From a virus, in the IMG/VR virus record IMGVR_UViG_3300025671_000142, positions 1 through 42,155 of that record: a stretch of 42,155 bases of DNA, one strand, 5' to 3'. Below the pieces are notes generated by a model. The model had not been told where the DNA came from. It saw nothing but the letters and a program-made list of their open reading frames with translations, and ran no database searches. Shown one piece after another: positions 8,648-34,100 of this stretch. The stretch's first letter is position 1. Each line of letters begins with the position of its first letter. The position numbers and the translations under genes are program-made.

Positions 8648-10141
8648 CTAGTAATACTCAACTGGTCTGCGGTATTTTGGTTCGTCGTCCCAGTCATCCA
8701 TTTCGGCCCTCACCCAGCCGCCTTGCCTAAACCTTAACAGAGCTTGAGTGGTTGAGTCCACTAAGTCGTCATGATCCCCAGAGGGAAATGACGCACATTC
8801 TTCAATCACTTCTTCTGCCCATCTGGTAGGAGGATACCATATTGAACCGCTTGCGAATAGATCTGTTATTGCATTAACCCTTGCTATCTTATCTTGTCCG
8901 CGTGATGGAGTAAACTCTGTTACTGGAATTCCCATAGATCTAAGCTCAAATATTAGTGGCGCACCAGAAGCTTTTTTCTCCACAATCATCTGATCTGGCT
9001 CAAACTCCATGTACTTGTCGTATGCCGCACGTTTCAAATCAGGGAACTCCAGCTTTTCTTTGAAGGCATCCAAAAGAATTATGTTTGGAGAGCCTTCATG
9101 GTAAAACACACCCCACGTTGTACAGGCGCTATAGTCGCTACGCTGTGTTTTGAGAAATGCCGTGTCCCAAGATTGTATGATTGCTTCGCATTCTGGTGGC
9201 TTGCTGCTCTCCCATTCGCGCCACCACTCCCGTTTAATCAGCGCACCCTCTTCTGATGTGGGGTTTTGTTGGTACTGGGCTGACCATTTGGATACAGGAA
9301 GTTCTGCTTTGAGAGCGTCTAATTCCTTTTGAGACCAGAATTCAGGCCATAGAGGGTTGCCAGATGGCAAGATAGCAGGGAACTCAATCACTTCCCATTC
9401 ATCAACGCCAGCCCTATCTGCCATTGAGTTTAGGATTTGTCCCGTCAGATCCTTCTTTGACCAGCGGGTCATAACCACAATAATCGCACCACCTGGCTGC
9501 AAACGCTGACGAGGACCAGATGTGTACCATTCATACACACGATCATACACATCAGAGTTGAACTGACCCTGCTGGGCATCCTGTTCTGAGTGTGGATCAT
9601 CAATAATCAAAAGATCAGCACCCTTACCAGTAACGGCACCACCAACACCAATCGCAAAGTAATCCCCACGTTTGTTGGTATTCCAACGTCCCGCAGCTTT
9701 CGAATCAGAAGACAGAGTAATGTTGGGAAACACTTTCCCAAAATCCTCAGACTGTATCAGGTTTCTAACCTTACGACCAAAGCCAACAGCCAGTTCTGCA
9801 GTGTGTGCCGTTTGAATAACTTTCTTCTCAGGAAACTTTCCAAGAAACCAAGCTGGGAGAAGGTAGGATGCAAACTCTGACTTCGTGTGTCTGGGTGGCA
9901 TATTGATTATCAGCCGCCTCAATTCTCCTCGCGCCACTCTCTCAAAGGCATTAGCCATGTCTTTATGGTGCCGACCAGAAATAAAACTGGGCCACATAAG
10001 ATTCACAAAGCTTATGAAGTTATCCTTTGCGTTCTTTTTGTTTTCTGCTTCCTCTAGCTGCTCAAGCAATTCTAAAAGCTCAACCTGCTGCTCCACAGGT
10101 AGCTGAGATATCTTGTCTTTCATTGCAGTGATGTTCTGCAT
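8648..10141 (-). CDS. terL: Terminase large subunit
   Basis: The DNA-packaging motor: an ATPase that pumps DNA through the portal and a nuclease that cuts it. The ATPase domain has a Walker A-like loop (NMPPRHTKSE), Walker B (LLIIDDPH) and a coupling motif (VVMTRWSKKDLTG). The nuclease domain begins at IQSWDTAFLKT with its catalytic Asp. Upstream GTG 10192 is possible, but ATG 10141 is preferred: it has AGGAGA 5 bases before it and gives a 497-residue protein of normal length. It is the first gene of the late minus-strand operon, reading away from the AT-rich control region. Confidence 0.93.
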   Translation of the reverse strand: MQNITAMKDKISQLPVEQQVELLELLEQLEEAENKKNAKDNFISFVNLMWPSFISGRHHKDMANAFERVARGELRRLIINMPPRHTKSEFASYLLPAWFLGKFPEKKVIQTAHTAELAVGFGRKVRNLIQSEDFGKVFPNITLSSDSKAAGRWNTNKRGDYFAIGVGGAVTGKGADLLIIDDPHSEQDAQQGQFNSDVYDRVYEWYTSGPRQRLQPGGAIIVVMTRWSKKDLTGQILNSMADRAGVDEWEVIEFPAILPSGNPLWPEFWSQKELDALKAELPVSKWSAQYQQNPTSEEGALIKREWWREWESSKPPECEAIIQSWDTAFLKTQRSDYSACTTWGVFYHEGSPNIILLDAFKEKLEFPDLKRAAYDKYMEFEPDQMIVEKKASGAPLIFELRSMGIPVTEFTPSRGQDKIARVNAITDLFASGSIWYPPTRWAEEVIEECASFPSGDHDDLVDSTTQALLRFRQGGWVRAEMDDWDDEPKYRRPVEYY

Positions 10142-10238
10142 AGTCTCTCCTATTGTGTGAGGTAGGTGAGCATTGAGTGGGGGAATGCCCACCTACCAGA
10201 GAAAAGGGACAGGGAGGAAACCCTTCTCTCGCGTGTAG

Positions 10239-10274
10239 TATATTATATATACGCGCACGCGTATATATAATATA
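10239..10274. repeat. Perfect inverted repeat, 17-bp arms
   Basis: Left arm TATATTATATATACGCG, two central bases CA, and the exact reverse complement as right arm. The CGCG core within alternating TA tracts could extrude as a cruciform or serve as a protein-binding or origin site. Confidence 0.9.
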
Positions 10275-10283
10275 TATATAATA

Positions 10284-10337
10284 TATATCGGTAGACTACC
10301 GATATAAGATATCGTCTACCGTAACGTCTACCGATAT
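10284..10337. repeat. GTCTACCG repeat cluster, site A
   Basis: Contains the palindrome TATATCGGTAG-A-CTACCGATATA and two direct copies of CGTCTACCG separated by TAA. Bases 10292-10338 match 22193-22239 at about 43 of 47 positions. Read on the minus strand, the segment still encodes a tail like the RusA C-terminus (DVTVDDIxYR, then stop). Confidence 0.85.
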
Positions 10338-10348
10338 ATAGAAGTAAA

Positions 10349-10362
10349 AGTTCAATTGAACT
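10349..10362. repeat. Dispersed near-palindrome, copy 2
   Basis: Perfect 14-base palindrome AGTTCAATTGAACT, flanked by AAA and AA, 13 bases upstream of a small plus-strand gene. Confidence 0.75.
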
Positions 10363-11572: not shown

Positions 11573-11586
11573 AGTGCAATTGAACT
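11573..11586. repeat. Dispersed near-palindrome, copy 3
   Basis: AGTGCAATTGAACT, touching the stop codon of the small terminase gene. Confidence 0.65.
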
Positions 11587-12095
11587 TATCCCAACAGGCG
11601 ATCCAGCTTGGCTTGCAGTTCAGCCTTGATGCTTTCCGCGTCACGCTCTGTCTTGTCTTCCGTCTCCACCTTGTCTGTGAACAGCGCCACGCTCTTCCCA
11701 AGCAGTTCCAGTGCGCGGACCCTCGCCCCATCAGAATTGTCAGGGTTCAGTGCCTCATCTGTTAGCTGTTTCAAAACAAAGTCACCTCTTGAGAGGCTCT
11801 GCATGCGCCGCTGCTGCTCTCTTTCAGCATTTAGCTGCTCTAATCTCATGGACACCTTGGGGTTCTGGACCAACAGGCAAGCCTCATTGTGTATGCTTGC
11901 ATTACTCATGTTTGCTGCATCATATGACTTCCGATACGCATCACTAAAGTTTGCCCCCTCAAAGATGGCCTGAGCGAAGGCTTCCTGTTTGTCTGTAAGC
12001 CCTCTGGTATTGGTGGCACTTTTCTTCCTAGTGCCTGTACTCTTCTTACCTGTATTACTCACTACTGTGAGATTTGGCTTATTCTTATTTGTCAT
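11586..12095 (-). CDS. terS: Terminase small subunit
   Basis: A 169-residue DNA-recognition partner of the large terminase. It has a basic disordered N-terminus, then the family signature LTDKQEAFAQAIFEGANFSD with a helix-turn-helix region (YDAANMSNASIHNEACLLVQ and PKVSMRLEQL) and a helical oligomerisation part. The C-terminal helix (about 140-169) is acidic and would contact the large subunit. The gene is unusual in standing alone, about 1.4 kb from terL and separated from it by three opposite-strand genes and the AT-rich control region. Confidence 0.85.
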   Translation of the reverse strand: MTNKNKPNLTVVSNTGKKSTGTRKKSATNTRGLTDKQEAFAQAIFEGANFSDAYRKSYDAANMSNASIHNEACLLVQNPKVSMRLEQLNAEREQQRRMQSLSRGDFVLKQLTDEALNPDNSDGARVRALELLGKSVALFTDKVETEDKTERDAESIKAELQAKLDRLLG

Positions 12096-14032: not shown

Positions 14033-14731
14033 ATGACTGCTTCAAAAAACTTTACCGTATCCGATGCCTCAATCAATGTTGTCTTCAAGGCTGAGGCAGC
14101 AATTGCTGACCTCAAGGGCCAGAACCGTGACAACAACGAGGCTGCTAACGCCCAGAAGATGGGGGCCTACGGCGAGGTGATCGCCACCATCGCCCACGTC
14201 AAACTGGTCAAGGGTAACCTGCCCCGCGCTGTTTCCAAGACGCTCCGCGCTGCGCTGCTTGAAGAGGCTGGCCTCAAAGAGGCTACCGTCAAGCGGTACG
14301 TCGAAAACTCTGTCGGTGCCGTGCGTCTGATCACTGACCAGATTGGCGACATCCCCAGCCAGTACACCGCTGACGCCATTGTGCGTGACCTCGCTGCAAT
14401 GGAGATCGATAGCGAGAACAAGCTCGCCAAAGCGGTCAAGGGCGAGAGCGATAAGTCAAAAGCTCAACGCTTGGCTGAACAGGTTGTCGGCAAGTTCTCT
14501 ACCAAGAAGGATGAGAACGGCAAGCAGGTGCAAGGCGATGTCTTCAAGGATGGCCTTGATGACGATGAGCTTGACGAATTCCAAAACGTCATGCGGGAGT
14601 TGATGGCTGCGCGGAAAGCGTACCGTGACACTGCCGCTGCCAAGGCCGCTGAGGCTGAGGCGGCTAACGAGAACGACACTGTCGATGCTGCCGTTGTGGC
14701 GATGCTCGACGAGCTTGGTATTGCGTCATGA
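14033..14731 (+). CDS. Hypothetical Ala-rich helical protein
   Basis: A 232-residue, mostly helical protein with an acidic C-terminal region (DDDELDEFQNVMRELMAARK and an Ala/Glu-rich coil). An earlier in-frame start at 13916 would overlap the preceding gene. ATG 14033 is preferred because of AAGGA 8 bases upstream. I do not recognise the family. The DNA is markedly GC-rich compared with the structural genes. Its 3' end overlaps a small membrane-protein gene by ATGA. Confidence 0.65.
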   Translation: MTASKNFTVSDASINVVFKAEAAIADLKGQNRDNNEAANAQKMGAYGEVIATIAHVKLVKGNLPRAVSKTLRAALLEEAGLKEATVKRYVENSVGAVRLITDQIGDIPSQYTADAIVRDLAAMEIDSENKLAKAVKGESDKSKAQRLAEQVVGKFSTKKDENGKQVQGDVFKDGLDDDELDEFQNVMRELMAARKAYRDTAAAKAAEAEAANENDTVDAAVVAMLDELGIAS

Positions 14732-16354: not shown

Positions 16355-17374
16355 ATGAAACTATCACAAGCAACTGCGATTACTGAGGCGGCAATTGACT
16401 TTGCACTCAGTTTGAAAAATGGACGCGATGCTCAGTACGTTGTGCCGTACTGGGTATCTGGTGCGGGTATCGGTAAGACAACTGCCGTGAAAGACATTTC
16501 AGCCCGTCGAAAAATTCCCTGCCATATTCTGTCGCTCGCCCAGTACGATGCGGGTGAGCTTGGCGGGTGGCCTGTTCCAGCCAAGGATGGCGATACGATG
16601 GTGCGTATGCGGCCTGACTGGATGCCGACAGAAGGTCCATGTATTTTGTTTGTTGACGAGCTTCCACAAGCTCCGACTGCGAACATGAACATTGCCGCAC
16701 AACTGTTCAACGAGCGGCGCATTGGGCCACATTATCTGCCTGATGAGTGTGTGCTTGTTGCCGCAGGTAACCGCATGTCTGATCGTGCTGGAACCAACAA
16801 CATGCCATCCCATCTCAAGGACAGACTGATGTTCTTGGAGATCGAAGCGGATCTTGAGGACACGATTGCTTATTACTACAGCAAGCGTATTGACGAGCGC
16901 GTCTGCGCTTTCTTGCGCTTTCGTCCTGAGTTCTTGCACAAGTTTGATCGTGATGCGGATGCATGCCCATCGCCCCGCTCATGGGAACGCGTTGGAACGA
17001 TCATGTCATGGGGTCTTGACCCGCTCAATCAACTTGAGGCCATTGCAGGTCAGGTTGGTCGTGCTGCGACTGCCGACTTCACGGGCTTTCTCAAGATGTA
17101 TAGCAGTGTGCCAGACATTGATGAGCTTATCGCCCAACCAATGGCGGCTGACGTACCGTCTGACCCCGCTGTTCTTTACGCGATCTGCGCAGCCGTTGCA
17201 TCCCGCGTGAACGAAAAGAACGTGGGCAATGTGATCAAGTACCTCAATCGTTTGCCGCAACAAGAGTTCTCTGCTTTTGTGATTAAAGATGCGATGAGCC
17301 GCAACAAAGATCTCAAGCAGTCTCAAGCGATCCGCGATTGGATCATGCAAACGGGATCAAAACTGGTCCTTTAA
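16355..17374 (+). CDS. MoxR-like AAA+ ATPase
   Basis: A 339-residue AAA+ ATPase. It has Walker A GAGIGKTT (36-43), Walker B CILFVDE (96-102), sensor 1 AAGNR (137-140), a candidate arginine finger at R157 (LKDRLMF) and a PRSWERV sensor-2 region. MoxR-type ATPases work as chaperones that act on, or with, VWA-domain partners such as ViaA. The next gene encodes such a protein. ATG 16355 has GGAG 7 bases upstream; TTG 16349 is less likely. Its role in phage infection is not known. Confidence 0.85.
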   Translation: MKLSQATAITEAAIDFALSLKNGRDAQYVVPYWVSGAGIGKTTAVKDISARRKIPCHILSLAQYDAGELGGWPVPAKDGDTMVRMRPDWMPTEGPCILFVDELPQAPTANMNIAAQLFNERRIGPHYLPDECVLVAAGNRMSDRAGTNNMPSHLKDRLMFLEIEADLEDTIAYYYSKRIDERVCAFLRFRPEFLHKFDRDADACPSPRSWERVGTIMSWGLDPLNQLEAIAGQVGRAATADFTGFLKMYSSVPDIDELIAQPMAADVPSDPAVLYAICAAVASRVNEKNVGNVIKYLNRLPQQEFSAFVIKDAMSRNKDLKQSQAIRDWIMQTGSKLVL

Positions 17375-17390
17375 AATCAGCAGCTTACGC

Positions 17391-17416
17391 GGATAGTTGA
17401 TGGCCTTCAACTATCC
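17391..17416 (+). other. Hairpin between moxR-like and VWA genes
   Basis: Perfect 10-bp stem GGATAGTTGA / TCAACTATCC with a 6-base loop and no T run. It is followed by an AGTTC palindrome and a second hairpin TTGGGTA/TACCCAA. Possibly an mRNA stability or processing element. Confidence 0.65.
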
Positions 17417-17426
17417 CAAGCAAAAA

Positions 17427-17440
17427 AGTTCAATAGAACT
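17427..17440. repeat. Dispersed near-palindrome, copy 6
   Basis: AGTTCAATAGAACT, preceded by AAAAA and followed by AAAA, between the MoxR and VWA genes. Confidence 0.7.
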
Positions 17441-17488
17441 AAAACCTTGGGTACGTTTGCTACCCAAAAAAAGAAAGTGGAGTGTGGT

Positions 17489-18616
17489 ATGGACGCACAA
17501 ATGAAAGTATCCCGTGCAGTTACGCGCCTTGTAGTGAAGCACCCGTTCTTCGGGTCGCTTGCGCTATCCCTGCGTGTCGCACCAGACACGACCATCCCGA
17601 CCATGTGTACGGATGGCAAGTCTATCTTGTGGTCACCAGATTTTGTTGATGGCATGGATCAAGAAGAAACCGTGGGCGTCATGGCTCATGAGGTGATGCA
17701 TGTTACGATGAAGCACAACCTTCGCCGTGGAGATCGTGATCCAGAACTCTGGAACATCGCATGTGACTTTGCGATCAATGAAATCCTCATTGAGGCTGGA
17801 TTTATCTTGCCGAAAGGTGGCCTGTACGACGAACAGTATAAGGGTCTTATGGCTGAGGCGATCTTTGACAGACTGCCAGAGGATGCCAAGGAACGCTTTG
17901 GTCAGGCAGCATCTGTCGGTCAGGTTGTGGACGCGACTAACGACATGGGCAACCCTGTCTCTCAGGCTGAGGCCAAGCAGATGGAAGCTGACGTGGATAG
18001 CAAGATCATGATGGCTGCGACTGGCGCAAAGGCTGTTGGCAATCTGCCCACTGCAATCAAAGAAATGATTGAGCGCATGAAGCGCAGCCAAGTAGACTGG
18101 CGCGATAAGATGCGCAGGTTTGTCGGTGGTGATCAGCCAGATGACTACAGCATGCGCAAACCTCAGCGCAAAATGTATCACATGAGCGGCATTGTTGCCC
18201 CATCCATTGAGAAGCTGGGCGCTGGTCATCTTGTTGCGCTGATCGATAGCAGCGGATCCGTTTCATCTAGCCGTGAGCTTCCCAGTTTCCTTGGAGAGAT
18301 GAACGCGATCAGCCAAGATCTCAAACCCAAATCGATCACGGTCATCACCTTTGATGCAAGGGTCCAGACCGTTCGCAGATACGAACAGGGTGAAGAGATA
18401 GACACCATCGAATTGGGTGGGCGTGGCGGCACAATGGTGTCTCCCGCCTTCCAATATGTGGAAGACAAAGGCATTGAGGTAGACAACCTAGTAGTCTTCA
18501 CTGACCTTTGCATCCATGACTTCCCAGACAAACCTGACTACCCAGTGCTTTGGGTTTCGTCTTGGGATCAAGCAAGCCCCGCACCTTGGGGGGAAACAAC
18601 TTACATCCAAGCATAA
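17489..18616 (+). CDS. Zincin-like/VWA-domain protein, MoxR partner
   Basis: A 375-residue protein of the DUF2201 type: an N-terminal zincin-like domain with HEVMH (67-71), followed by IACDFAINEIL, and a C-terminal VWA-like domain. The metal-binding MIDAS set is complete: DSSGS (253-257), T315 in GGT and D339 in FTD. ATG 17489 is chosen (GGAG 6 bases upstream). The pairing of a MoxR ATPase with a VWA protein recalls RavA-ViaA and cobalt-chelatase-type systems. In this phage the pair may remodel or proteolyse a target; inference only. Confidence 0.85.
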   Translation: MDAQMKVSRAVTRLVVKHPFFGSLALSLRVAPDTTIPTMCTDGKSILWSPDFVDGMDQEETVGVMAHEVMHVTMKHNLRRGDRDPELWNIACDFAINEILIEAGFILPKGGLYDEQYKGLMAEAIFDRLPEDAKERFGQAASVGQVVDATNDMGNPVSQAEAKQMEADVDSKIMMAATGAKAVGNLPTAIKEMIERMKRSQVDWRDKMRRFVGGDQPDDYSMRKPQRKMYHMSGIVAPSIEKLGAGHLVALIDSSGSVSSSRELPSFLGEMNAISQDLKPKSITVITFDARVQTVRRYEQGEEIDTIELGGRGGTMVSPAFQYVEDKGIEVDNLVVFTDLCIHDFPDKPDYPVLWVSSWDQASPAPWGETTYIQA

Positions 18617-19000: not shown

Positions 19001-19783
19001 ATGTCTACTGTAATCTATGTAAAAAATAAAAACACTTTCGCAAAGAATAACTACTTTGCGATCAAGCGGATGAGCAAAGCTCTTGGTCTGTTCTTTAAGG
19101 CTCATGAGTTCTCAGACGAAAACATCAAAAACTTTGCTTACAACCCAAACCAATTCGAATGGAAGTCTTTTGATTATCCAGACGCACCAAGGGGTTTGAA
19201 AGAATTACCAATGGAAGACGCAAATTTTTGCGCAAGGTATGGAGCAAACTTGATCAGGCAAATAAGACGTTTGCGAAAAGTCCAAGGAGTAGATGATGCT
19301 CCTAAAACAATCATCCAAAAGTCAAAGGAAGCATCGTGCCTGTATGGAGAGAGTGCTTTAAAAGTATGCTTTCCTTCCATGCGTTGGCAAATTCGACCAG
19401 TGATGAGCGGCAACCTTTTTGTTGAAAAGGAGAGGCAAGACTACGGTCAGTATGATTGGGTGGTCAATGTTCCAATTACTTGGTACAGCACGATCAATCG
19501 TAAAGGCTTATCGATTGCCGTTGCTGGCGATGGCAATCGATTTATCATGGCTGTTAAGCCCCGTGATCTTTCTCGCCTGACCGACCAAGGCATATATGCT
19601 TATGAAGTTGTGGCAGTCAAAGCAAAAAACAAGAAGGCAGAGATGGAGACAGGTTGGTTAATGAGCTACCCCACTGGTAATGAGACTGATGTCCGCGCCT
19701 ATCACAAAGAGTTCTCCAGATGCGAAAGCTTGCTTAGAAGACGCATTAGGGATACAGTTACAAAAGAACTCATGGGGTATTGA
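19001..19783 (+). CDS. Hypothetical protein
   Basis: A 260-residue soluble protein with mixed alpha/beta composition, Asn/Lys/Arg-rich. I do not recognise a domain; visible segments include WVVNVPITWYSTINRKG and LSIAVAGDGNRFIMAVKPRD, which look like consecutive beta strands. AAGGA precedes the ATG. Its DNA is visibly AT-richer than the 13-18.6 kb genes. It overlaps the next gene by one base. Confidence 0.65.
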   Translation: MSTVIYVKNKNTFAKNNYFAIKRMSKALGLFFKAHEFSDENIKNFAYNPNQFEWKSFDYPDAPRGLKELPMEDANFCARYGANLIRQIRRLRKVQGVDDAPKTIIQKSKEASCLYGESALKVCFPSMRWQIRPVMSGNLFVEKERQDYGQYDWVVNVPITWYSTINRKGLSIAVAGDGNRFIMAVKPRDLSRLTDQGIYAYEVVAVKAKNKKAEMETGWLMSYPTGNETDVRAYHKEFSRCESLLRRRIRDTVTKELMGY

Positions 19784-20164: not shown

Positions 20165-20332
20165 TCAAATCGTTTCGAACATCTTATCTGCTAAGTTGCT
20201 AATAAGACGCAGTGTCTCTCTTGAGTTAAGTTCAACCACTGCAACCTCATCCCCGCCTACAAATACATGAAGCACAGGACCCGTCTCGCCTTCTCTGACG
20301 ATCACAAATTTATTGTCCGAAGATTTGGTCAA
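20165..20332 (-). CDS. Small hypothetical protein with TTG start
   Basis: A 55-residue gene overlapping the 3' end of the primase-helicase gene by 23 bases in another frame. It encodes MTKSSDNKFVIVREGETGPV, then LHVFVGGDEVAVVELNSRET and a helical end (LRLISNLADKMFETI). This regular beta-then-helix pattern, and its place between the primase stop and the minus-strand terminator, support a real gene. TTG 20332 is likely, since a stop lies just upstream in frame; GTG 20305 is the alternative. Function unknown. Confidence 0.6.
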   Translation of the reverse strand: MTKSSDNKFVIVREGETGPVLHVFVGGDEVAVVELNSRETLRLISNLADKMFETI

Positions 20333-22091
20333 AGTCTATATCAACTTCTGTGTATGGAGTTGGCGCATCCAGTATCGGATCTGGTATGTGCTTCTTGTAT
20401 GTTGACGTTGGAACATCGAAGGCAAGATCGGTATTGCCCTGCTTTCCAACCCAAGAGAAACGACATTTCCATATGTGGATTTCTGAAACACGAGAACGCG
20501 CAGGGTCTGGTCTGTGAACTGTCAGACCCACGTCAGCCTTGGCGAACCAAGCTGCACTGCCTGAGATATCATACCCCTTGGGAGCAGGTACATTTCCTGA
20601 CTGGTCCCGCATCATCTTTGCTGGATGAGCTACGAACCAAAGGTGAATGCCATGTGCCTGAGCAAACACGCGCAGCCTTGTCAGAATATCAGAAACCCAT
20701 TCGGTTTCGCTGACATCCCGCCCCTTCTGGATGTAGTTGTATGGGTCAATGATGGCACCTCGAACACCGTGCCGCATGACTGCAATCTTCAATCTTTCAA
20801 TGATGCTTTCGATAGAAGACATCGAACCGTCTGCCTGATAAAGAAAAGAAAAGTGCGATTGAACAAATTCCTTTCCGCGATTCAGCTCCTCTTGGGTTAT
20901 TCTATCTGTTGCACCTTCGAAGAAAGGCTTACGAATATACTTGCTGATCAGCTTGGCAATATGAAGACGCGGTTCATTTTCAAAAGAACAGATTGCAAAC
21001 TTCCAATCTTTTTCTTGTGCCATGTTGACCATAATCTGATCAATGAATTCCGACTTACCTGATGATGGATGACCCGTCACCACGGTAAGCTGACCAGTGA
21101 CAATGGTGTATAACTCATCGACGTTATCGTATCCCGTACTCTCGCCACGTCCCATTCCTTTTTCGTAGATCTCATCGATCTGATCATAGAAGTGAGACGC
21201 ATCATACAGACCAGCGACAGGCCACGGCTTGGCGGCAACCACGATATCATCAATGCCATCCTTGCCAGAGTTCAACAAGACATCGTTGGCATCCTTGCAC
21301 CCCTCTGGGTACTCTATCTTGAAGCATCGATCCTTTCCGATACGACGAGCGATCTCTTCAGCGGTTGCCTGTCCCGCTGCGTCCGCATCCATAGCGATGA
21401 TGATACGACTGGCGGCATCAATTTTCTTCTTTGCTGCCCATAAGTATTTGAATTTATTATCTTCTTTTGGATCGATGTTTCCATCGACGACCTTCATGAC
21501 TGCCCCGTTTGGGATTGACACAACGCTTTCGTAACCCGTTTCCATAAACGCGAGAGCATCCATCTCGCCCTCGCATATGATTAAATCATCGTCCCGCTGG
21601 ACGTTTTGCAAATTGAAAAAAGTTTGGGGTGCGCCATTGCACTTGAACCCTTTGCTCTCAATGGACCGCACCTTGTATGCATATTCTTGACCCTCGTTTG
21701 TGTACGGGAACATGATGCATTCTGTTTCCTTGTTGAGTGCCTGTATCCAAGATGAGGTTGAGACGAGGTTTGCTTTCTTCGCAGTCTCTTCACTGATCCC
21801 ACGGCTACTCAGCCATGCCAGTGCCGCGTCTGTAAGCGGGGATTTGTTTACGTTCTTTGCAACGGACATTGGTTCCACTCTATTTGTTTTTGTAAAGCCA
21901 TCACTCAAAGGAACAATGCCCTGCTGATTACAGTGCCAGCACTGAAACAGTATCTTGTCTTGTTCTATTTTGAGAGAAAGCGTTTTATCGGTTTTGTTTT
22001 TGCGGCTGGGACTACAGCTTGGGCATTTTATTTTGTATTGACCTTGCCCTAATCTGTATGCCTCGCCACGAACTTGCTGTTCGATTTGCAC
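20310..22091 (-). CDS. Primase-helicase (T7 gp4-like)
   Basis: A 593-residue bifunctional replication protein. The N-terminal zinc finger has C23-x2-C26 and C51-x2-C54. The TOPRIM primase domain has E174 in CEGEMD and D235/D237 in MDADAAG. The helicase domain has Walker A GHPSSGKS (340-347) followed by RecA-fold segments such as GAIIDPYNY. It would unwind the fork and make primers on the lagging strand. GTG start with AGGAG 6 bases upstream. No phage DNA polymerase accompanies it, so it probably loads the host replisome. Confidence 0.92.
   Translation of the reverse strand: MQIEQQVRGEAYRLGQGQYKIKCPSCSPSRKNKTDKTLSLKIEQDKILFQCWHCNQQGIVPLSDGFTKTNRVEPMSVAKNVNKSPLTDAALAWLSSRGISEETAKKANLVSTSSWIQALNKETECIMFPYTNEGQEYAYKVRSIESKGFKCNGAPQTFFNLQNVQRDDDLIICEGEMDALAFMETGYESVVSIPNGAVMKVVDGNIDPKEDNKFKYLWAAKKKIDAASRIIIAMDADAAGQATAEEIARRIGKDRCFKIEYPEGCKDANDVLLNSGKDGIDDIVVAAKPWPVAGLYDASHFYDQIDEIYEKGMGRGESTGYDNVDELYTIVTGQLTVVTGHPSSGKSEFIDQIMVNMAQEKDWKFAICSFENEPRLHIAKLISKYIRKPFFEGATDRITQEELNRGKEFVQSHFSFLYQADGSMSSIESIIERLKIAVMRHGVRGAIIDPYNYIQKGRDVSETEWVSDILTRLRVFAQAHGIHLWFVAHPAKMMRDQSGNVPAPKGYDISGSAAWFAKADVGLTVHRPDPARSRVSEIHIWKCRFSWVGKQGNTDLAFDVPTSTYKKHIPDPILDAPTPYTEVDIDFDQIFGQ
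20852..20865. repeat. Dispersed near-palindrome, coding copy in primase-helicase
   Basis: AGTGCGATTGAACA inside the helicase domain; a weaker match that may be chance. Confidence 0.35.
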
Positions 22092-22196
22092 GGCTATCTC
22101 CTACTCTATTCGAGCATCATAGGGGATACGAATAGCGTCCGTCAATCTACGATTTTTTTGCCGCCTAATAATATAATATATATATATATACTTAGA
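22092..22196. promoter_or_regulatory. AT-rich gap upstream of primase-helicase
   Basis: A 105-base gap with an alternating TA tract next to site B of the 47-bp repeat. It parallels the control region at 10.2-10.3 kb and may hold the primase promoter or a replication site. Confidence 0.5.
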
Positions 22197-22240
22197 CTAC
22201 CGATATGTAATATCGTCTACCGTAACGTCTTCCGATAATA
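22193..22240. repeat. GTCTACCG repeat cluster, site B
   Basis: Second copy of the 47-bp motif at 10292-10338, with about four differences. It includes the last codons and stop of the RusA-like gene, and one CGTCTACCG plus a varied CGTCTTCCG copy. Confidence 0.85.
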
Positions 22241-22619
22241 AATACTGTGGAATATTTTTTATATTACACGAGCGAACTCTAATTATTGACCGTGGATTTT
22301 CTTTGTCTAAACCCCAGTAAATAAATTTTTGTTTTACCTGCCTATCGTTTTTGTAGATGCGGTTCTGCATGCAATCTAGGATCAGGCTTTCGTCCAAGTC
22401 TGGGCGGCGGGATGCATAGTAAATCATCATCTCAACTATGACATCATCTGTTGTCGGCACTTTCAAAGTGGGGCATTGCGCCTCAAAGAAACTCACATAG
22501 TCCCGTGCTTTCTGGGACTTGATCAAGGCTGGTCTGCCTTTTATCATGACCATCTTACGTGAATTTGCTTTCGACGCAGGTTCACCATACACCGTAAACG
22601 TAACATCAAATGCAGCCAT
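22197..22619 (-). CDS. rusA: RusA-like Holliday junction resolvase
   Basis: A 140-residue nuclease-type protein that would cut four-way junctions during replication or before packaging. The catalytic motif RRPDLDESLILD gives D74 and D76, and D92 comes from NDRQV; a C-terminal basic strand follows. The lysine usually found four residues after the second Asp is isoleucine here (I80), which may affect catalysis. ATG 22619 has GGGGGAAG just upstream and is preferred over TTG 22631. It heads the minus-strand replication operon; its last codons lie in the 47-bp repeat. Confidence 0.82.
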   Translation of the reverse strand: MAAFDVTFTVYGEPASKANSRKMVMIKGRPALIKSQKARDYVSFFEAQCPTLKVPTTDDVIVEMMIYYASRRPDLDESLILDCMQNRIYKNDRQVKQKFIYWGLDKENPRSIIRVRSCNIKNIPQYLLSEDVTVDDITYR

Positions 22620-22691: not shown

Positions 22692-23597
22692 ATGAAAATA
22701 ACTAACAACTATAACCTGCCTGATGCGTTCTTGAATTTCGCAAGAGACGATAAGTATTCGAAGGGCAAAGCTGACATCAGCATTACAACATTGATCGACG
22801 CACCACGGGTGCGGTTGATGAAAGACTTACACGCTGACAAAATGGAGAAGGATGTCGTTGACATGATCTGGCCTCTGTTTGGTACAGCGGTCCATCATAT
22901 TCTTGAGAGTGCCGACGATCCTAAGAACGTGCAGGTAGAGGAACGTCTTTATGTGGACGTTGCGAACTGGACTATCTCTGGTGCGCTTGACCATCAAGAG
23001 GTTCTTGAGGATGGCACTGTGCAAATTACTGACTACAAGGTTACGTCTGCTTGGTCAGTAATCCTTGGCAAGGTTGAGTGGGAGCGCCAGCAAAACTGTT
23101 ACGCTTGGCTCGTTGAGAATTCCAAGGAAGGTGCGAACCGTGGCAAGACTGTAAGCAAGCTGCGCATCTGCGCTATTCTCAGAGACTGGCACAGACGCAA
23201 GGCAGAATTCGATCCTGAGTATCCTCAGTCACCAGTGGTGATTGTTGATCTGCCCCTGTGGAGCAAAGACGAGCGCGAGGATTACATTCAAGAGCGCATT
23301 GATGCCCACCAAGAAGCGCAGATGTTCAGCGATCTGTATGATGAGTTTCCTGCATGCTCTCCAGAAGATCAGTGGGCGAAGCCTGATACGTGGGCCGTTA
23401 AGAAGAAGGGCCAGAAGAGAGCGATGAAGGTTCATCAGTCTGAAGACGAGGCTGTTAGACATGCGAATGCAAACACTGCGCTCAAGGGAAATTGTGAGAT
23501 TGAATACCGCAAGGGTGAGAAGACCCGTTGCGAAGGGAACTACTGCGGAGTGGCAGAGTTTTGTGATCAATTTAAAGGATGGAAAAATGCCAACTAA
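22692..23597 (+). CDS. RecB/Cas4-like PD-(D/E)XK exonuclease
   Basis: A 301-residue nuclease of the PD-(D/E)XK superfamily. It has the N-terminal GTAVHHILE motif (His 68/69), ISGALDH with D100, QITDYK with D114 and K116, and QQNCYAWL, the order seen in RecB-like and Cas4 nucleases. Near the C-terminus, C280, C285 and C291, with C268 or C222, could hold an iron-sulphur cluster as in AddB and Cas4. ATG 22692 has GGAG 6 bases upstream. Likely makes single-strand ends for the annealing protein encoded two genes downstream. Confidence 0.83.
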   Translation: MKITNNYNLPDAFLNFARDDKYSKGKADISITTLIDAPRVRLMKDLHADKMEKDVVDMIWPLFGTAVHHILESADDPKNVQVEERLYVDVANWTISGALDHQEVLEDGTVQITDYKVTSAWSVILGKVEWERQQNCYAWLVENSKEGANRGKTVSKLRICAILRDWHRRKAEFDPEYPQSPVVIVDLPLWSKDEREDYIQERIDAHQEAQMFSDLYDEFPACSPEDQWAKPDTWAVKKKGQKRAMKVHQSEDEAVRHANANTALKGNCEIEYRKGEKTRCEGNYCGVAEFCDQFKGWKNAN

Positions 23598-23984: not shown

Positions 23985-24719
23985 ATGTCAGTATGGAAAA
24001 CACTGTCCTCAATTAATGTTAATGACAAAAAGCAAGAAAAGATGGGATTGAGTTACCTATCTTGGGCTTGGGCTTGGGGCGAGGTAAAATCTAAGTACCC
24101 GACTGCGTCATACACAGTTCATGATGACATCATCTATCCCGATAGCACCGTTGAGGTGCGGGTCACCGTGACTGTAGAAGATCAGGATCACATGATGTGG
24201 TTGCCAGTCATGGACAACAGAAACAATGCTATCTCTGGACCGACATCACGTCAGATTAGTGATGCCAGAATGCGCTGCTTTGCCAAGGCAATCGCCATGC
24301 ATGGCTTGGGTCATTACATTTATGCGGGTGAGGATATCCCTCAGAGCAACGGAGAGGCCCCGCAGAGTGAGGGAAAGGAAAATCCTAAGCCTACCCCCCA
24401 GAAAAAAGAAAAGGCTCCTGAGCCGCCCTCTGAGGAAAAAGTTCAATTGAACAAAGATGAGAAACTCTTGGGCTACATGAAGAACACTGGTGCCTACAAG
24501 GAAGCGGATCGTGAACCTCGTGCTGTTTACGACTGGGATAGCTGGGCAACACTGGCGATAGCATGGATCAATACCATCAAGTCCGAAAAGACTTTGAACG
24601 GTTTTTATCTTGCTAATAAAGAGATGTTTGAACGCGCAAAAGAAGAAGCGTTTTCAAAGTATGAAGAGGTTGGGCAGGTGATCTCAGCCAAGAAGGCAGA
24701 ACTAAAGGAGAAAAAGTAA
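23985..24719 (+). CDS. ssDNA-annealing protein, DUF1071 (Sak3-like)
   Basis: A 244-residue protein whose N-terminal 115 residues match the DUF1071/Sak3 type of phage recombinase: LSYLSWAWAWGEVKSKYP, then MMWLPVMDNRNNAI, SDARMRCFAKAIAMHGLG and HYIYAGEDIP. Such proteins anneal complementary single strands in phage recombination. A Pro/Lys/Glu-rich linker follows (about 125-155), containing a copy of the AGTTC palindrome, then a helical C-terminal part. GGAG before the ATG. It is followed with TAATG by the SSB-like gene. Confidence 0.82.
   Translation: MSVWKTLSSINVNDKKQEKMGLSYLSWAWAWGEVKSKYPTASYTVHDDIIYPDSTVEVRVTVTVEDQDHMMWLPVMDNRNNAISGPTSRQISDARMRCFAKAIAMHGLGHYIYAGEDIPQSNGEAPQSEGKENPKPTPQKKEKAPEPPSEEKVQLNKDEKLLGYMKNTGAYKEADREPRAVYDWDSWATLAIAWINTIKSEKTLNGFYLANKEMFERAKEEAFSKYEEVGQVISAKKAELKEKK
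24440..24453. repeat. Dispersed near-palindrome, coding copy in annealing protein
   Basis: AGTTCAATTGAACA preceded by AAAA, within the disordered linker (residues KVQLN). Thirteen of 14 core positions match. Confidence 0.6.
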
Positions 24720-25051
24720 TGTCAGAATATCCCGCATCAGGAATCCTGTTTCAGAACGACAGGAAACAAAATGATCGTCAGCCAGATTACACTGGCAACA
24801 TCGAACTCAATAGTGAAACGGTGACAGACTTATGGAACCAATTACAGGAAGGGGTGAAGAACCCGAAGGCCAATCTCGTTGGGTGGAGAAAGACATCCAA
24901 GGGTGGCAGACCATTTCTGTCCTTGCGCGGCGACTTGTTGAGAGAGCGCAAGGAAAAGAGCGGATACCAAGCACCGTCTGGGTATCAAAACAACAACGGA
25001 TATCGACCCAGTCAAAGTTCTCAAGACTTAGACGATGAGATACCGTTTTAA
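24719..25051 (+). CDS. SSB-like protein with acidic C-terminal tip
   Basis: A 110-residue protein. The N-terminal part (LFQNDRKQNDRQPDYTGNIE) resembles small phage SSB-type proteins, and the C-terminus DLDDEIPF is a near-match to the bacterial SSB tip (DDDIPF) that recruits partner proteins. A Gly/Asn/Ser/Tyr-rich linker lies between. It follows the annealing gene in a TAATG overlap with AAGGAG, so the two are coupled. The fold itself is not certain from sequence, but the tail makes single-strand binding likely. Confidence 0.7.
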   Translation: MSEYPASGILFQNDRKQNDRQPDYTGNIELNSETVTDLWNQLQEGVKNPKANLVGWRKTSKGGRPFLSLRGDLLRERKEKSGYQAPSGYQNNNGYRPSQSSQDLDDEIPF

Positions 25052-26526: not shown

Positions 26527-26782
26527 GCGGGAGAGATATTTGAAAACTTTGCGGGGGTCACCCTGCTTAGTGTGTAGTCGTGGCGCAGAGGCGCACCACC
26601 TGCAGCATGTGGGGGAACGTGGTGTAGGTATGAGGTCGGGAGATAACTGGGCTGTACCTCTGTGTCACGATTGCCATATGGACCTGCACCGTTTTGGTGA
26701 TGAGCGCACATGGTGGGATCTTATGGGGATAGATGCCAAAGCATGGGCTGAAAGAAATTGGGAGAGATACAGTGAACTTTAA
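26474..26782 (+). CDS. HNH-family nuclease, DUF968-like
   Basis: A 102-residue protein with a zinc site C31-x2-C34 and C64-x2-C67, a catalytic HH (41-42) and a final MDLHR segment (H72), the HNH/DUF968 arrangement of phage recombination-associated nucleases. ATG 26474 has GAGGATAAAG upstream and lies inside the preceding GNAT-like gene, overlapping it by 53 bases. The next gene starts within its last codons. Likely acts in recombination or DNA processing. Confidence 0.8.
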   Translation: MLTRKWRGFRFPKQDRIRRERYLKTLRGSPCLVCSRGAEAHHLQHVGERGVGMRSGDNWAVPLCHDCHMDLHRFGDERTWWDLMGIDAKAWAERNWERYSEL

Positions 26783-27059
26783 TGGAAAGCTCTTAAAGAA
26801 GATCCGCGAACAAAAAGGCTTAATTCAAACAGAAATATGTGACGCCATAAACTTACATCAATCTCTTTATTCTAAGTACGAGAGAGGCGTAATAAAAGAG
26901 CCACCTGCAACAGCAATCAAAGACATTGCTGATTACTTAGGTGTGCCTTACGAAAGTTTCTTTGGTGAATTCGATGAGCCTGTGTTGATCAATCAAACAT
27001 CAGGCATTCCAGAACGCATTGACGTTCATGTTCATGTAAAAATTGATTGGGGTTTTTAA
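26772..27059 (+). CDS. Xre-family transcriptional regulator
   Basis: A 95-residue helix-turn-helix protein (GKLLKKIREQKGLIQTEICD, recognition helix region NLHQSLYSKYERG, then DIADYLGVPYESFFG). GTG 26772 has GGAGAG 5 bases upstream and is in frame, while the nearby ATG 26782 is not. It overlaps the HNH gene by 11 bases. It is one of only two recognisable regulators here and a candidate binder of the dispersed palindromes, though no link is shown. The C-terminal strand (RIDVHVHVKID) may dimerise. Confidence 0.85.
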   Translation: MNFNGKLLKKIREQKGLIQTEICDAINLHQSLYSKYERGVIKEPPATAIKDIADYLGVPYESFFGEFDEPVLINQTSGIPERIDVHVHVKIDWGF

Positions 27060-27060
27060 A

Positions 27061-27510
27061 ATGAGTAGCATAAGAGATGCAGCTATGGGCTTTGAAGCTG
27101 TAAAGGTATCCATGTCTCAAGATAGAAATGGAATTATCCTTCGACTCAACGTCCATCCAAACGACTGCCCACAAGAGCTTCACACTGACTGGGTGGGAAC
27201 AAGATACATGGTGGCTATGGTTCGACTTAACGATCAGGATGAACCAGAGACACGGGAAGAACATCAGCGAATAGAAAGGCTGATTGCATCGGCAGGGCTT
27301 CTGTGCCGTAACCCAGAATTCGGAGAGTACCTCTGGTCTTGTGGGTTGATGGATGAAGAAGACCCTTTCAAAATTGAAGGCGCAGCGGTGAAGGCTGTAA
27401 GAGAATACTGTGGCATCACATCACGGTCAGAGTTTAGAGATAATCCTGATGCCAGAAGTAAGTTCGAAACACTAAGAGAGGACTTTAGGCAATGGAAGAA
27501 AAACTCCTAG
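27061..27510 (+). CDS. Phage hypothetical protein
   Basis: A 149-residue protein of a type recurring in phages: VKVSMSQDRNGIILRLNVHP, TDWVGTRYMVAMVRL, then SAGLLCRNPEFGEYLW and a C-terminal EFRDNPDARSKFETLREDFR. No catalytic motif is evident. The start is ATG 27061, one base after the regulator stop, with a poor ribosome site. It overlaps the AlpA-like gene by 19 bases. Function unknown. Confidence 0.65.
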   Translation: MSSIRDAAMGFEAVKVSMSQDRNGIILRLNVHPNDCPQELHTDWVGTRYMVAMVRLNDQDEPETREEHQRIERLIASAGLLCRNPEFGEYLWSCGLMDEEDPFKIEGAAVKAVREYCGITSRSEFRDNPDARSKFETLREDFRQWKKNS

Positions 27511-27677
27511 ATACAAATGATCTGTCTGTGATGCTGTCGCTTCACTTAAAGACTGTTCAAAAAATGTTGCGGGAAGAGAATGATTTCCCGAAACCAATCA
27601 TGATTACACCACACACACGGCGGTGGAAGAGATCAGAAATAATTGAGTGGATGGAGAAGAAGCGTGACACCGTATGA
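27492..27677 (+). CDS. AlpA/excisionase-like HTH protein
   Basis: A 61-residue small DNA-binding protein of the AlpA/MerR-like winged-helix type: LLDTNDLSVMLSLHLKTVQK, then ENDFPKPIMITPHTRRWKRS and IIEWMEKK. Such proteins act as excisionases or regulators. No integrase is seen, so regulation is more likely. It overlaps both neighbours. Confidence 0.78.
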   Translation: MEEKLLDTNDLSVMLSLHLKTVQKMLREENDFPKPIMITPHTRRWKRSEIIEWMEKKRDTV

Positions 27678-28104: not shown

Positions 28105-28111
28105 ACTTTAT
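28090..28111. repeat. Dispersed palindrome, copy 8 (22-bp perfect)
   Basis: Extends the AGTTCAATTGAACT core (28094-28107) to 22 perfectly self-complementary bases. It holds the TGA stop of the plus-strand gene (28102-28104) and the TAA stop of the minus-strand giant gene (28110-28108). Confidence 0.85.
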
Positions 28112-31100
28112 CGATAGTCCTTCATGATCATGTTGCCACGAGCATACAGCATCTGCTTTTGCTCATCCAACCTATCAAGAATTAACTGACGCTGACTGTC
28201 AGGAAGGTTTACATTATCACGGATAGCGTTCTGCTGCCGTGATATTTTTTTGATGGCATTGTTGATTGCTTTGATGCGAGGCAGAAGAGCAACCTCTTCA
28301 GAATACTTTTCTCTTGCCCTCATAAACCTTTCACGGTCACCTGCTTCTTGTGCCGCCTTGATCTCCTGACCTACGTTCAAGATACGATCACGCTTCTCCA
28401 CAAACATGCCAATGTTTTCACGCTCTGACACAGTGCCGATTGCCTTACGAACAAAAGGTATCTCGCGGACCAAGTCTTCGTTGAAGCCATCGGTGTACAC
28501 ACGAGCAGGTAATTCGGCTGTTCTTTGGACGAACCGCCCGATACCACCTGTCAGATATTCAAACCAGTAGTCCATGATCTCTGGGTTCCAATCAACGAAA
28601 CCAGACATCTCAGTGGTGCCGCCAGTCAGAGCATTTAAGTTGTTTGTAATCCAACGCGCTGAAGGGCTGACACTATTGAAGTAACGCTGGCTATCTGGAG
28701 ACTGATCTCCTGGATACTGCTGCTTATATATCGGAACTCCAGCGTAGTTTTCGTTACGCATGATTTCAATAAACGGATCGAACACAGTTGGCGCTGCAAA
28801 GTTGGCAAGGTTTTCCGTGCCGCCCAGTGGATTGAGAGCATCCACCGCAGTCATGATGATTGAGTTGGCACCTTCTGACGCAGAGTATTCTCCGCGTAAT
28901 GTGCGATTGAATGCGCGACCAGCATTGACTGCCATGTTCAAGCCGTATGGCATTGGTATTGCAAGATATTGACGATCAGTTCCCATACCAAATGTCGGAA
29001 GGATCAAGTTATGCTCAAGGATGTAATCGGGTATCTTGTCATAAACCAAGATCTCGTCGTCATCTTCTTCAGAGAATGTTGAGTTAAGAAGGTCTTGCAT
29101 TACACCAGCAACAACCAAGGCACCCCATAGTCTGCGAACCTTTGGTGATCTTAGGAAGGCATTGAAAAGCGCAAATGAACCTTGGATGGATGCGTTATAG
29201 AACAAGTACATTGAGTTCATCAGTGTCTTGTATTCGCCACCCTTACCAAAGTTTACAGTCACATTACGTGCAGCTTGTGCCGCTCTCTCAGGAGAGAAGC
29301 CTTTGTCCTTTAGACCTTTGTAAACAGCAACCCGCACAGCGTTTTCAGCCACAGTGTTGTAGTCTTCTAAGAACTTGAGAAGAGACTTAACTCTCTCCCC
29401 TGCGAAACTGTTCTTCATCTTGTTGAACTTGCCACGCGCACCATCCTCAGCGATGTCGCCCAGTAAGTTGCTAATGTTTGCCATCTGATCGGCAACACTG
29501 TTCATTGGGTTTGCAGAATTCTGACCACCATCACGGACGAAGTCAGCGTATATCTTTGCCCACTCACTATCCTTGTCACCATTTCTGATGGCTCTCTTGA
29601 TGCCACCAAATGCGCTTCTGTAGTCCTTGGCAATACTCTTCACCATGCCATCAGCATCAAACTGCTGCACGTTTATACCTGCAGTCTGGATGTCACGGAC
29701 GATGTTAGTGATAAAGAATTCTGGGTTGTACGAGGTGTTAATGTTTGACAGGTATCTGTTAAGCTTACCCAAAGATCTAGTGATAAATCCAAGTGAGCTA
29801 GATCCTGTTCCATCACTACCCTTCAAGGAGTTGGCGAGACGTATGTCACTGATCTCAACATAAACATCTTTGCCATCAACTTTAGCTATGAAGATATTAG
29901 GGTCTTGTCCTGCCATCATGTCGGGTATTTCTCTTACCTTACCTGATGTATCCAACACACGGCGTGTCGGCATGCGATCTAGGATCCGACCAAAGCCACG
30001 GGTTTTGTCTGGGTTTGCGCGTAGCAATTCAATGAATGCCTGACCAACCTTGTTGCGTTCTCCGCGAACAACAGAGTTCTGGTTCTGATTAATCACAGTT
30101 GCAAGGATATCTGTGGCATAGTCAAAACGACCTAGCGCACGACGATCTTCCCTACCACGTACACCAAACGGCGCACCGCTGGCTGGGCGGGTAAAGTCCA
30201 TTTCGCCCTCAAGCATATCCACCTTGCCACGCAGAGGCACGTATGAATTAAAGTTTGTATCAGTGCGCAATTCCTCTGGTATCAAACCATAATCAGCACG
30301 GCTCTGGTTTGTATTTGCAACAATACTTCTGACCCCTTGCTGAACTCTCTGCAGAGCAGCCACACTTGGCGCGTCCAACGTGGCAACCCACGCTAGGATT
30401 GAATCAGCTTCCATGTCTGACATGCCTGAGCCAGAGGTGTTATCTGGATCTCTTTTTCTGATGAATGCGTTGCGTTCCTTGGCGTGTGTCGCGTAAAGAA
30501 CAGCATCAACTACTGCAAGTTTTTTGCTTGGGTAACTAGCAAGAGCTTTCTTAACAAACCCATCACCCGTCTCTGACGCCTTGTCTGAAATAGCTTTTAG
30601 CTGATCGATCTTACCCTGAGAAATGTTAACACCTTTAACTGCATCCACAGCATCTTTGTAGATTGTCTTCTCACGGCTTTCGATCTCTGCGCCTACACGA
30701 CCATGATACAATTCTTCTTGCAGATAAGGATCAAACGCATCTGTAATTGTAGCGTTCTTCTTTTGAAGCTCTTGCATCATACGTCCCACGGGAAGCATGT
30801 CGTCTTGGAACCTGCGAATAATCCCATCCGCTGCAGTCTGTGCTTTTTCTTCTGGCACAAAAAATTTCAAACCTTTTGCCAAGAAGTCAGAGGTTCTAGC
30901 ATATTCTAAATTGTATTGCTTTTCGCCTATCTGCTCTGGAAGTCTGCTCATCAAGCGAGACTGACGAACAGGCGCAGTCTTACGTGCCTTCTTCTCTAAG
31001 ATCGGGAAGAATGTCTTTACATAGAATACATTTTTAGAAGGTGCATTTGGTAGATCACGACCCGACTGCAGTACAAGGCGCATGGGTGGCGCTTTGAACG

Positions 31101-34100
31101 CTAGGTTATTGCGCCACTCAAGAACGATAACACCCTGACTTGGATAGGAGATAACCGCATCACCATCCTCGTACCCTTGATCTTGCCAGCGGCGAAGGAG
31201 ATCAAAGATGGCATTCTCAACACGCTTGTATTTAGAATTCTCCACCAGTTCCTTATCGTGGTTGCGTTGTTGTATGTGATACAATCCCTGACCAACCTCT
31301 ACACCATTCTCGTATGTTTTGTGGGAACCTTTAGGCAAAACTATAGGACGTAGCTTGCCCGTTGTGTCATCCCTAAAGTACCCATAGACTGGATTGGGAG
31401 AGCCATCAGCCATGTTAACTGGTGCGCGTAATGGCATGAGTGCCTGAGCAGGGATGAGGCGAGAGAACCGTTGAGGTGGTAGCTCTGGATCAACTTCTGC
31501 TCCCGCAAGATCTGCTTCTGTTTGCCGTAGCTGTTCGGTTGTTAGCTGTTCCTGTGGGGCCATAGACCCATCAAGAAGTGTTAGCTCTCTTGGAGCGAAG
31601 AAGTTTCCTTCTTCTGGCCCTCTTTGTATCGCATCAATCTCTCTGCCAATTTCAGAATCTCTGTCGAGTTGAGATTCGACACTACGGATTCTTCCTCGTT
31701 CTGCATCGGGGAGTGTGGCTTCGATTTTGTCATCGCTTACACCTTTGTTTTTAAGGATGGCTATTGCACCATCTGCATAATCATTGTCATCACCACGACC
31801 TTTGCGCACACCACCAGCTTCAAAGATGCGCTTCTCTGCGTACCACATGAGGGCTTGGAAGTCTGCGTTGGTTAGATCCACACCAATCTGGTTGCTTTGA
31901 CGCAGTATTTCTCTAGCACGATTAGCAGCAGCCCTCATGGCTGAACGCTCACGGGCATTACGTGGATCTTCCTGAAGCTGAGGCTTTAGTTTACCTGCTA
32001 AATTTTTAGCAGCCAGTGCTAAGTCTGTGGATTTAGGACGTGCATCTTGAGCAATCTTCTTAACTTTTTCCGCGTCACGCCCAGTGATTACACCGTCTGA
32101 TGTGACAAGAAAGTTATATTGATCAGCAAGATCATCAAGCTTGTCGTTGAATGCTTTGTTGTAGAAGTTTTTGTCCCAAACTTTTTGTACTTCTGGGGCA
32201 ATAAGTTCAATATCACTTTTCTCTATAGTGGTGATTCCCAAAGCTTCGACAGTATCCACCAAAAGCTTTTGGTCCATTTCCGTCAGGCTATCTGGATTTG
32301 ATATTAGGTTCCAAAGCTTTTCTTTGTTTTCCTGTACAAGTTCTTCACGATAGTTAACTATTGGGTTGCCAGTGATACGGTTGACAAAGCGCATCCACCA
32401 GCGATCCATTGTTAGAGGATCAAAGTTGCCACGTAAGTTTTGATAGAAACCATTTCCAATCTTAGGTCCAATCACATAGGCAACGCCAACGATTTCATCG
32501 GCAAGTTCTTTTCCATCTATTGTAAATGGTAAATCTTTGACACGATCTACACCGAATACTTCTGTCATCAGTGCCGCAAGATCACCCTTACGCATCTGCG
32601 TTGTAAGCAGATCGTTAATCTGATTAGAGTTATAACCAAGATCCACAAGAGCATTCCAAAACTCCCATGCCTTAATCATGGACTTGCCTTGCCCCCCAGA
32701 AGCTGAGAGCGGAAACTTACTGTCTTGGCTGTTCTTCCATGCGTCATACTGGCGAGATGCCAGTAGGTAGTTGTCAATTACAGACAAACCATTTGAGGTA
32801 ACTGCTGTTGCATAGTCAAATGCATGCTCAGACGCTGGATCATACATTGAATTCTCTGTGCCATCAGGACGCAGTGGTGATACCTCTGGGTACACAGGGA
32901 ACAGAATTTGTTTTGCCAGCTTCAGCTTGGCATCATACCAACCAATCGCATCGCTACTGGACAGAAGCGCAGCCTCTGCTTCTGCAGCCATGATGCGAGC
33001 GACCTCTTCGCGGTCTTGCTCTGAGTTGACGATGTCATATGTACGTGTGCCGCGAAGCTCAAGAAGCTTGTTGGCAAAGCTTACAAGGGTTTCGGAACCC
33101 TGCTTGTTTTTAAACTTAGGTTGTCCAGTGTTCGGGTCTAAATAATCCAGAACACTAGCAGCACGTTGCTCAGGAGAGAGGGGTAAGGTTAGACGTGATT
33201 GTCTAAAGCCCTCTACTCCTCTAGTAAGCTGTTCTCTTTGGCTGGCGTTACGGTTATTCCTTGCTTCCGCAAAGCGGCGACCAACCTCTGCAAGGTTTCT
33301 TTGGTATCCGATTGCGGTGTCACCTCTGTAAGCACCACTCTCTTGGAGTTGTCTGATTCCTTCATTGGTCCTGATCTCCTCAAAGTTATTCAGATCAAAG
33401 ATTGCCAGTTGATCTGCAGCCTCAGCGATGTACAGCGCCTCTTCTGCAGTCGGCAGTATCAAAGTGTTGTCTAAGAAATATTGCTGAGAGTCTGTGTCGA
33501 ACCAACCACCAAGGTAAACTGGCTTATTGACAGCCCTCGAAATATCCTTATTATCCTCAATATAACCTAATAGTACCTCCTCTGGCAAGGTCTCTCCGAC
33601 AATTATTTCGGCTTCTTTGAGGGGGGCAACAACGAAACCACCAGACGCAGGTTCCATGGAGACAGGATCAATAGTAAATCCATCAGGATTATTTCTGATA
33701 AAGTCTTGTAAACCTGATACACTAGGGGAGCGAGACAGCCTTGAGAACTTAACTTGCTGTTCAACAGGCAAATCTGTAACATAGTCATCGGAGGTAGATA
33801 AGATGGCAGAACCTTTTGCACTCATAGAAGATGGCTCTTCACGGGCGCTTATATTCAAGGCTGATGGATCTACATCAGTGCGTACTTCTGAAGGCGTTGT
33901 AATGCCAGCCTCTGCCGTTGCGGCAGAAGAGATCCCAACACCAGATGATCTACGTGCATTCCGCGCAGCCTCAAGCAGTGAACTCTCTGCTCTTCTCCAA
34001 GATGCTTCTGCATCCTGACGTGTAGTGTTCATTCGATCTAGCGCAGCTTGGAAAGCCTCATCATAGTTTCTATAACTACGAGCGATGGCAGCAAAGTAAG

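Follow-up and report, generated by a model that had tools for sequence, protein, structure and literature searches.

The window analysed here, a 42,155-base virus record from a marine phage, contains two matching AT-rich repeat elements 11.9 kb apart, of which one (element T, positions 10239 to 10340) lies upstream of the terminase large subunit gene terL and the other (element P, 70 nt, positions 22168 to 22237) lies directly upstream of a helicase-primase gene. Their repeats, positions and low duplex stability suggest that T and P are paired replication origins, similar to oriL and oriR of Bacillus phage SPP1, in a phage with a helicase-primase, a reading whose probability is put at about 0.5. 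The original prediction had described a single candidate region at T; the site itself is confirmed, and a second such element, P, which had been missed, is found when the window is searched with positions 10200 to 10360. The origins of uncultured marine phages are seldom located, and here both elements can be picked out across the whole clade by a two-copy rule together with their extremely low duplex stability.

Element T combines an AT-rich palindrome with a cluster of iterons. It is intergenic and lies between divergent genes, as had been predicted, with terL (8648 to 10192, minus strand; phrog_38, E = 8e-109) on one side and rightward ORFs from 10376 on the other. A perfect palindrome (10239 to 10274), specific to this lineage, has 17-nt arms (10239-10255 and 10258-10274) around a 2-nt centre and overlaps an alternating, DUE-like TA tract (10262 to 10288) that adjoins the first iteron. 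The sequence CGGTAG-A-CTACCG (10289 to 10301) forms an inverted pair of iteron cores; the second CTACCG core (10316 to 10321) follows 20 bp past the first and the third (10328 to 10333) another 12 bp further on, both on the plus strand. The element also holds a palindrome with 11-nt arms (10284-10294/10296-10306), a 15-nt inverted repeat (10282-10296/10326-10340) and direct copies of CGTCTACCG at 10313 and 10325, so that the perfect inverted repeat, the TA alternation, the shorter palindrome and the two direct repeats of the original prediction are all in place. The 17-bp-arm palindrome is far above chance expectation: arms of this length were reached in none of 500 dinucleotide-preserving shuffles of 10200 to 10360 (maximum 12), and no other palindrome in the window has arms longer than 11 nt. 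CGTCTACCG alone shows marginal enrichment in the window (7 near matches, 3.5 expected), while for the longer TATCGTCTACCGATA the enrichment is clear (6 compared with 0.4 expected; 0 of 100 shuffles), in part because of element P (22168 to 22237).

Element P is on the same strand as T and is 87% identical to it in a gapped BLAST alignment (81% ungapped). Its right half overlaps the 3′ end of rusA, a RusA-like Holliday-junction resolvase gene (22197 to 22619, minus strand), and a putative sigma70 promoter (TTGACG-18-TATGAT; 22116 to 22145, minus strand) lies between P and the helicase-primase gene (Toprim and DnaB_C; 20310 to 22091, minus strand). Common to both elements are a TA tract and three direct CTACC/CTTCC cores, at 10296, 10316 and 10328 in T and at 22197, 22217 and 22229 in P; with core spacings of 20 and 12 bp, the sites all look towards much the same side of the DNA helix. 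By its sequence, the anatomy of both elements is that of an iteron origin, with a putative AT-rich unwinding tract beside helically phased iterons.

IMG/VR searches with terL and with the primase returned 80 loci each, and all 13 relatives that were scanned carry such elements at the T and P loci, about 10.5 to 14.4 kb apart. Within the window's own lineage, three CTACCG sites are kept at both loci beside a TA tract, with spacings of 20-21 and 11-12 bp. Poor conservation of the repeats in relatives had been named as grounds for abandoning the original prediction; the iteron cores and their spacing are conserved, whereas the 17-bp palindrome is found only in relatives with a 99-100% identical terL. 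As judged from these sequences, the conserved part is the iterons and the AT tract, not the palindrome. Moreover, exact searches of 2.9 million viral contigs with two core patterns matched 20 and 18 stretches, five of them common to both, and all of the 33 distinct loci lay upstream of terL or the primase, 92-164 bp from the aligned start of terL and 97-101 bp from the primase. These loci are not all independent, since a few come from contigs already represented among the relatives above.

In other lineages, where terL is still 76-90% identical, the repeats are quite different, and they are the same or similar at both loci of one genome. The repeat types seen are CTACC(T/G)A, TACTAAAGGGACT, TATATTAATATTATA, CTCTCTCTTAGAGAGAG, GGTATATAACTGTTAA and ACTAGTTATAACTAGT; from lineage to lineage they are unrelated, as in CGTCTACCG, ACTAGTTATAACTAGT and CTCTCTCTTAGAGAGAG. 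All of the relatives with a T-P pair are metagenomic, and most of the contigs are fragments; no cultured phage carrying the pair was found, and a primase search of genome contigs gave no link to a host. By terL or primase, the closest cultured phages are HTVC023P, HTVC027P, DSL-LC04 and Pag-Yong1 (terL identity 46-58%), the last also with a homologous primase-helicase (37%); the paired element was not found in the stretches examined of HTVC023P, DSL-LC04 and Pag-Yong1.

The T-P pair is present in 11 of 14 contigs compared with themselves, the window included, and no third copy occurs among the matches listed. The exceptions are G012 and G029, for which no match was listed, and G013, in which, of the two elements, only P appeared, as a self-palindrome. 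T-P alignments were scored with a composition-aware scheme of our own that assumes a base composition. The mean score of a genome's own pair is 58.7, compared with a permutation mean of 33.3 and a permutation maximum of 53.7 (20,000 permutations), in a set of 11 representatives, one per element type, that were selected by visual inspection once the matching was already evident and that leave out G029 and G030. Of the 11 own pairs, 10 exceed dinucleotide shuffles with z of at least 5; the own match of G013 reaches only z = 1.5 against shuffles of its own P. In G029 and G030, CTATTAGAGATAG is common to T and P (top-pair score 33), and their own P ranks just 7th to 8th for T in the wider comparison. 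One genome is mismatched: G041 (IMGVR_UViG_3300021379_001157; L145 / L228) combines a primase and a P of the window's CGTCTACCG type with a terL and a T of another, CT-hairpin type, which indicates that T-P matching is not absolute, unless this contig is chimeric.

Further, a nearest-neighbour stability scan of whole contigs, scored over stretches of 80 bp, ranks P as the least stable 80-bp stretch of the window and T as the second. T and P occupy the first two ranks in 11 of 12 genomes and ranks 2 and 3 in the remaining one (G013); they are also the first two in G029 and G030. In the 13 genomes where they come first, the two stretches share sequence, with scores of 33-84 (lowest, at 33, in G029 and G030); the two top-ranked stretches of HTVC023P, DSL-LC04 and Pag-Yong1 have no sequence in common (scores 15-22). 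The original wording of a replication origin or a major switch agrees with these melting ranks and with the helically phased, conserved iterons, but there are two such elements where it had one, and the palindrome is not the conserved part. The cumulative GC skew, which had been proposed as a check, has a local minimum near 10 kb and yields no origin signal: the minimum tracks gene direction, and four-fold-degenerate sites have no consistent switch there. Skew follows the coding strand in this genome and is therefore uninformative as an origin test.

The oriL and oriR of SPP1 are 12-13 kb apart, each with direct repeats and an AT-rich DUE; the origin-binding protein is gp38, and fork stalling at the second origin, with a RusA-like resolvase, an exonuclease, an annealing protein and SSB, has been proposed to give concatemers (PMC3485210, PMC6316719). 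The window resembles SPP1 in having two separate cis elements with common repeats, one in the replication region and one in the late region, each with an AT-rich, easily melted tract. It also encodes a DnaB-family helicase, the RusA-type resolvase, an exonuclease (22692 to 23597; phrog_2139), a Sak-like single-strand annealing protein (23985 to 24719; phrog_8492, phrog_659) and a single-strand DNA binding protein (SSB; 24719 to 25051), the last three on the plus strand. SPP1 uses the host polymerase; in the present phage, no DNA polymerase was recognised among the annotated ORFs of the window, nor on reading the ORF list (not a profile search) of the 58-kb relative G002. In contrast to SPP1, a gp38- or gp39-like gene was not recognised in the window, the primase is fused to the helicase, P occupies intergenic sequence and the 3′ end of rusA instead of lying within an initiator gene, and the repeat sequence is wholly different between close relatives.

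Portal and major head protein genes were also recognised in the window; no tRNA genes were. A MoxR-like ATPase followed by a DUF2201/VWA metallopeptidase-like protein (16355 to 18616) is kept in the relatives compared. A large polyvalent protein of 2,988 aa with an LPD38 domain is encoded at 28108 to 37074, and the ORF at 39494 to 41533 contains a seven-copy repeat with a 66-nt period (39948 to 40475).

If T and P are paired origins, a putative initiator would bind the iterons at both, which are spaced about one and two helical turns, open the adjacent TA-rich unwinding tract and then load the helicase-primase of the phage. On the SPP1 model, theta replication would probably begin at P, which belongs to the replication module. 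T, which sits by terL in the late region, would be a second origin or a fork-stalling site; it would trigger a switch, carried out by the RusA-type resolvase, exonuclease, Sak and SSB, to the concatemers that are packaged. Since a single initiator would have to recognise both elements, the two copies would remain alike within a genome even as their recognition sequence diverges from one lineage to the next. A search for a gp38-like, origin-binding initiator gene by Pfam/PHROGs and two structure predictions gave no candidate; the universal ORFs at 14033-14731 and 19001-19783 had no match at E <= 0.001 by structure prediction and PDB fold search. TerS (terS, 11586 to 12095, minus strand) and an AlpA-like HTH protein were considered as the factor that keeps the elements matched and were rejected, as neither follows element type.

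Phage P4, another phage with a helicase-primase, has two separated cis regions with the same iterons, ori and crr, and its alpha protein itself binds the iterons. Unlike P4 alpha, the primase-helicase of the window has no evident extra DNA-binding domain; a literature search found no paper on a P4-type two-site origin. A bolder and rather doubtful extension is that the clade carries a matched origin pair under diversifying selection, in which one recognition sequence replaces another at both loci between close relatives and the phages form 'incompatibility groups', each initiator serving only the two elements of its own genome. The pattern of elements matched within genomes and different between them opens a direct way to test how origin (or operator) specificity evolves in phages.

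As no initiator gene was found and the origin role is read from sequence, a serious rival, possible if somewhat unlikely, is that the two elements form a pair of transcriptional control regions, where a regulator on the phased iterons would switch the terL (late) and primase (early) operons in the manner of OL and OR for the lambda repressor, and the AT tracts would be promoter -10 regions. Lambdoid genomes have two such matching sites, and in lambdoid immunity the operators as a rule match each other and have sequences specific to their lineage. T and P each precede leftward operons, HTH genes are present (26733-27059 and 27492-27677), a TTGAC-17/18-TATnnT-like promoter follows P in most relatives, and the P core of this lineage is placed 97-101 bp from the primase start. 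However, P, unlike a lambdoid operator, lies upstream of the -35 and not over it, no promoter-like match was found at T, and the distance between element and gene varies widely by lineage (about 15 to 890 bp between the start of T and that of the terL match). A covarying repressor was not found among the two HTH proteins checked, the AlpA-like HTH being nearly identical across two different element types and the HTH_3 gene not being universal but missing from most relatives. The lowest duplex stability in the genome, moreover, exceeds what a promoter needs.

Readings based on recombination, packaging, terminators or RNA structure fit less well. That T and P flank a segment of about 12 kb with terS, that one adjoins terL and that G041 resembles the product of a crossover at some point between T and P would suit att-, pac- or parS-like sites for site-specific recombination, packaging or segregation, or the boundaries of an exchangeable 12-kb cassette; this is improbable, as the segment's terS, MoxR and VWA genes are kept in all genomes compared, TerS does not follow repeat type, no integrase was recognised among the annotated ORFs, and two pac sites would leave the unwinding tract unexplained. 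It is very improbable that the elements are RNA hairpins (terminators, RNase III sites) or DNA cruciforms whose likeness gene conversion maintains. Several types do form strong hairpins (the P region of G013 folds at -75 kcal/mol) and rusA adjoins P, but type A at P folds weakly, and the only terminator-like match is a weak, AT-rich one at T, with none at P. In most members, T and P differ at the third core site (CTTCC versus CTACC) in a locus-specific way, which argues against strong recent gene conversion. Neither element has the GC-rich stem and following U run of an intrinsic terminator, and an Rfam search gave no match.

Other inverted repeats occur near T and elsewhere in the window. The terL leader (10150 to 10235) contains two imperfect ones, GGTAGGTG...CACCTACC and GAGAAAAGGG...CCCTTCTC, and relatives have similar hairpins there. 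A dispersed AAAGTTCAATTGAACTTT-like palindrome (AGTTC-N4-GAACT; about 20 nt each) is found at 2545, 10345, 11572, 12187, 14869, 17423, 18956 and 28090, mostly between genes, and once more within an ORF, at 24436. It is possibly a regulator site, and the TTGAAC inside it could be used as a -35; it also adjoins T in many relatives of differing element types.
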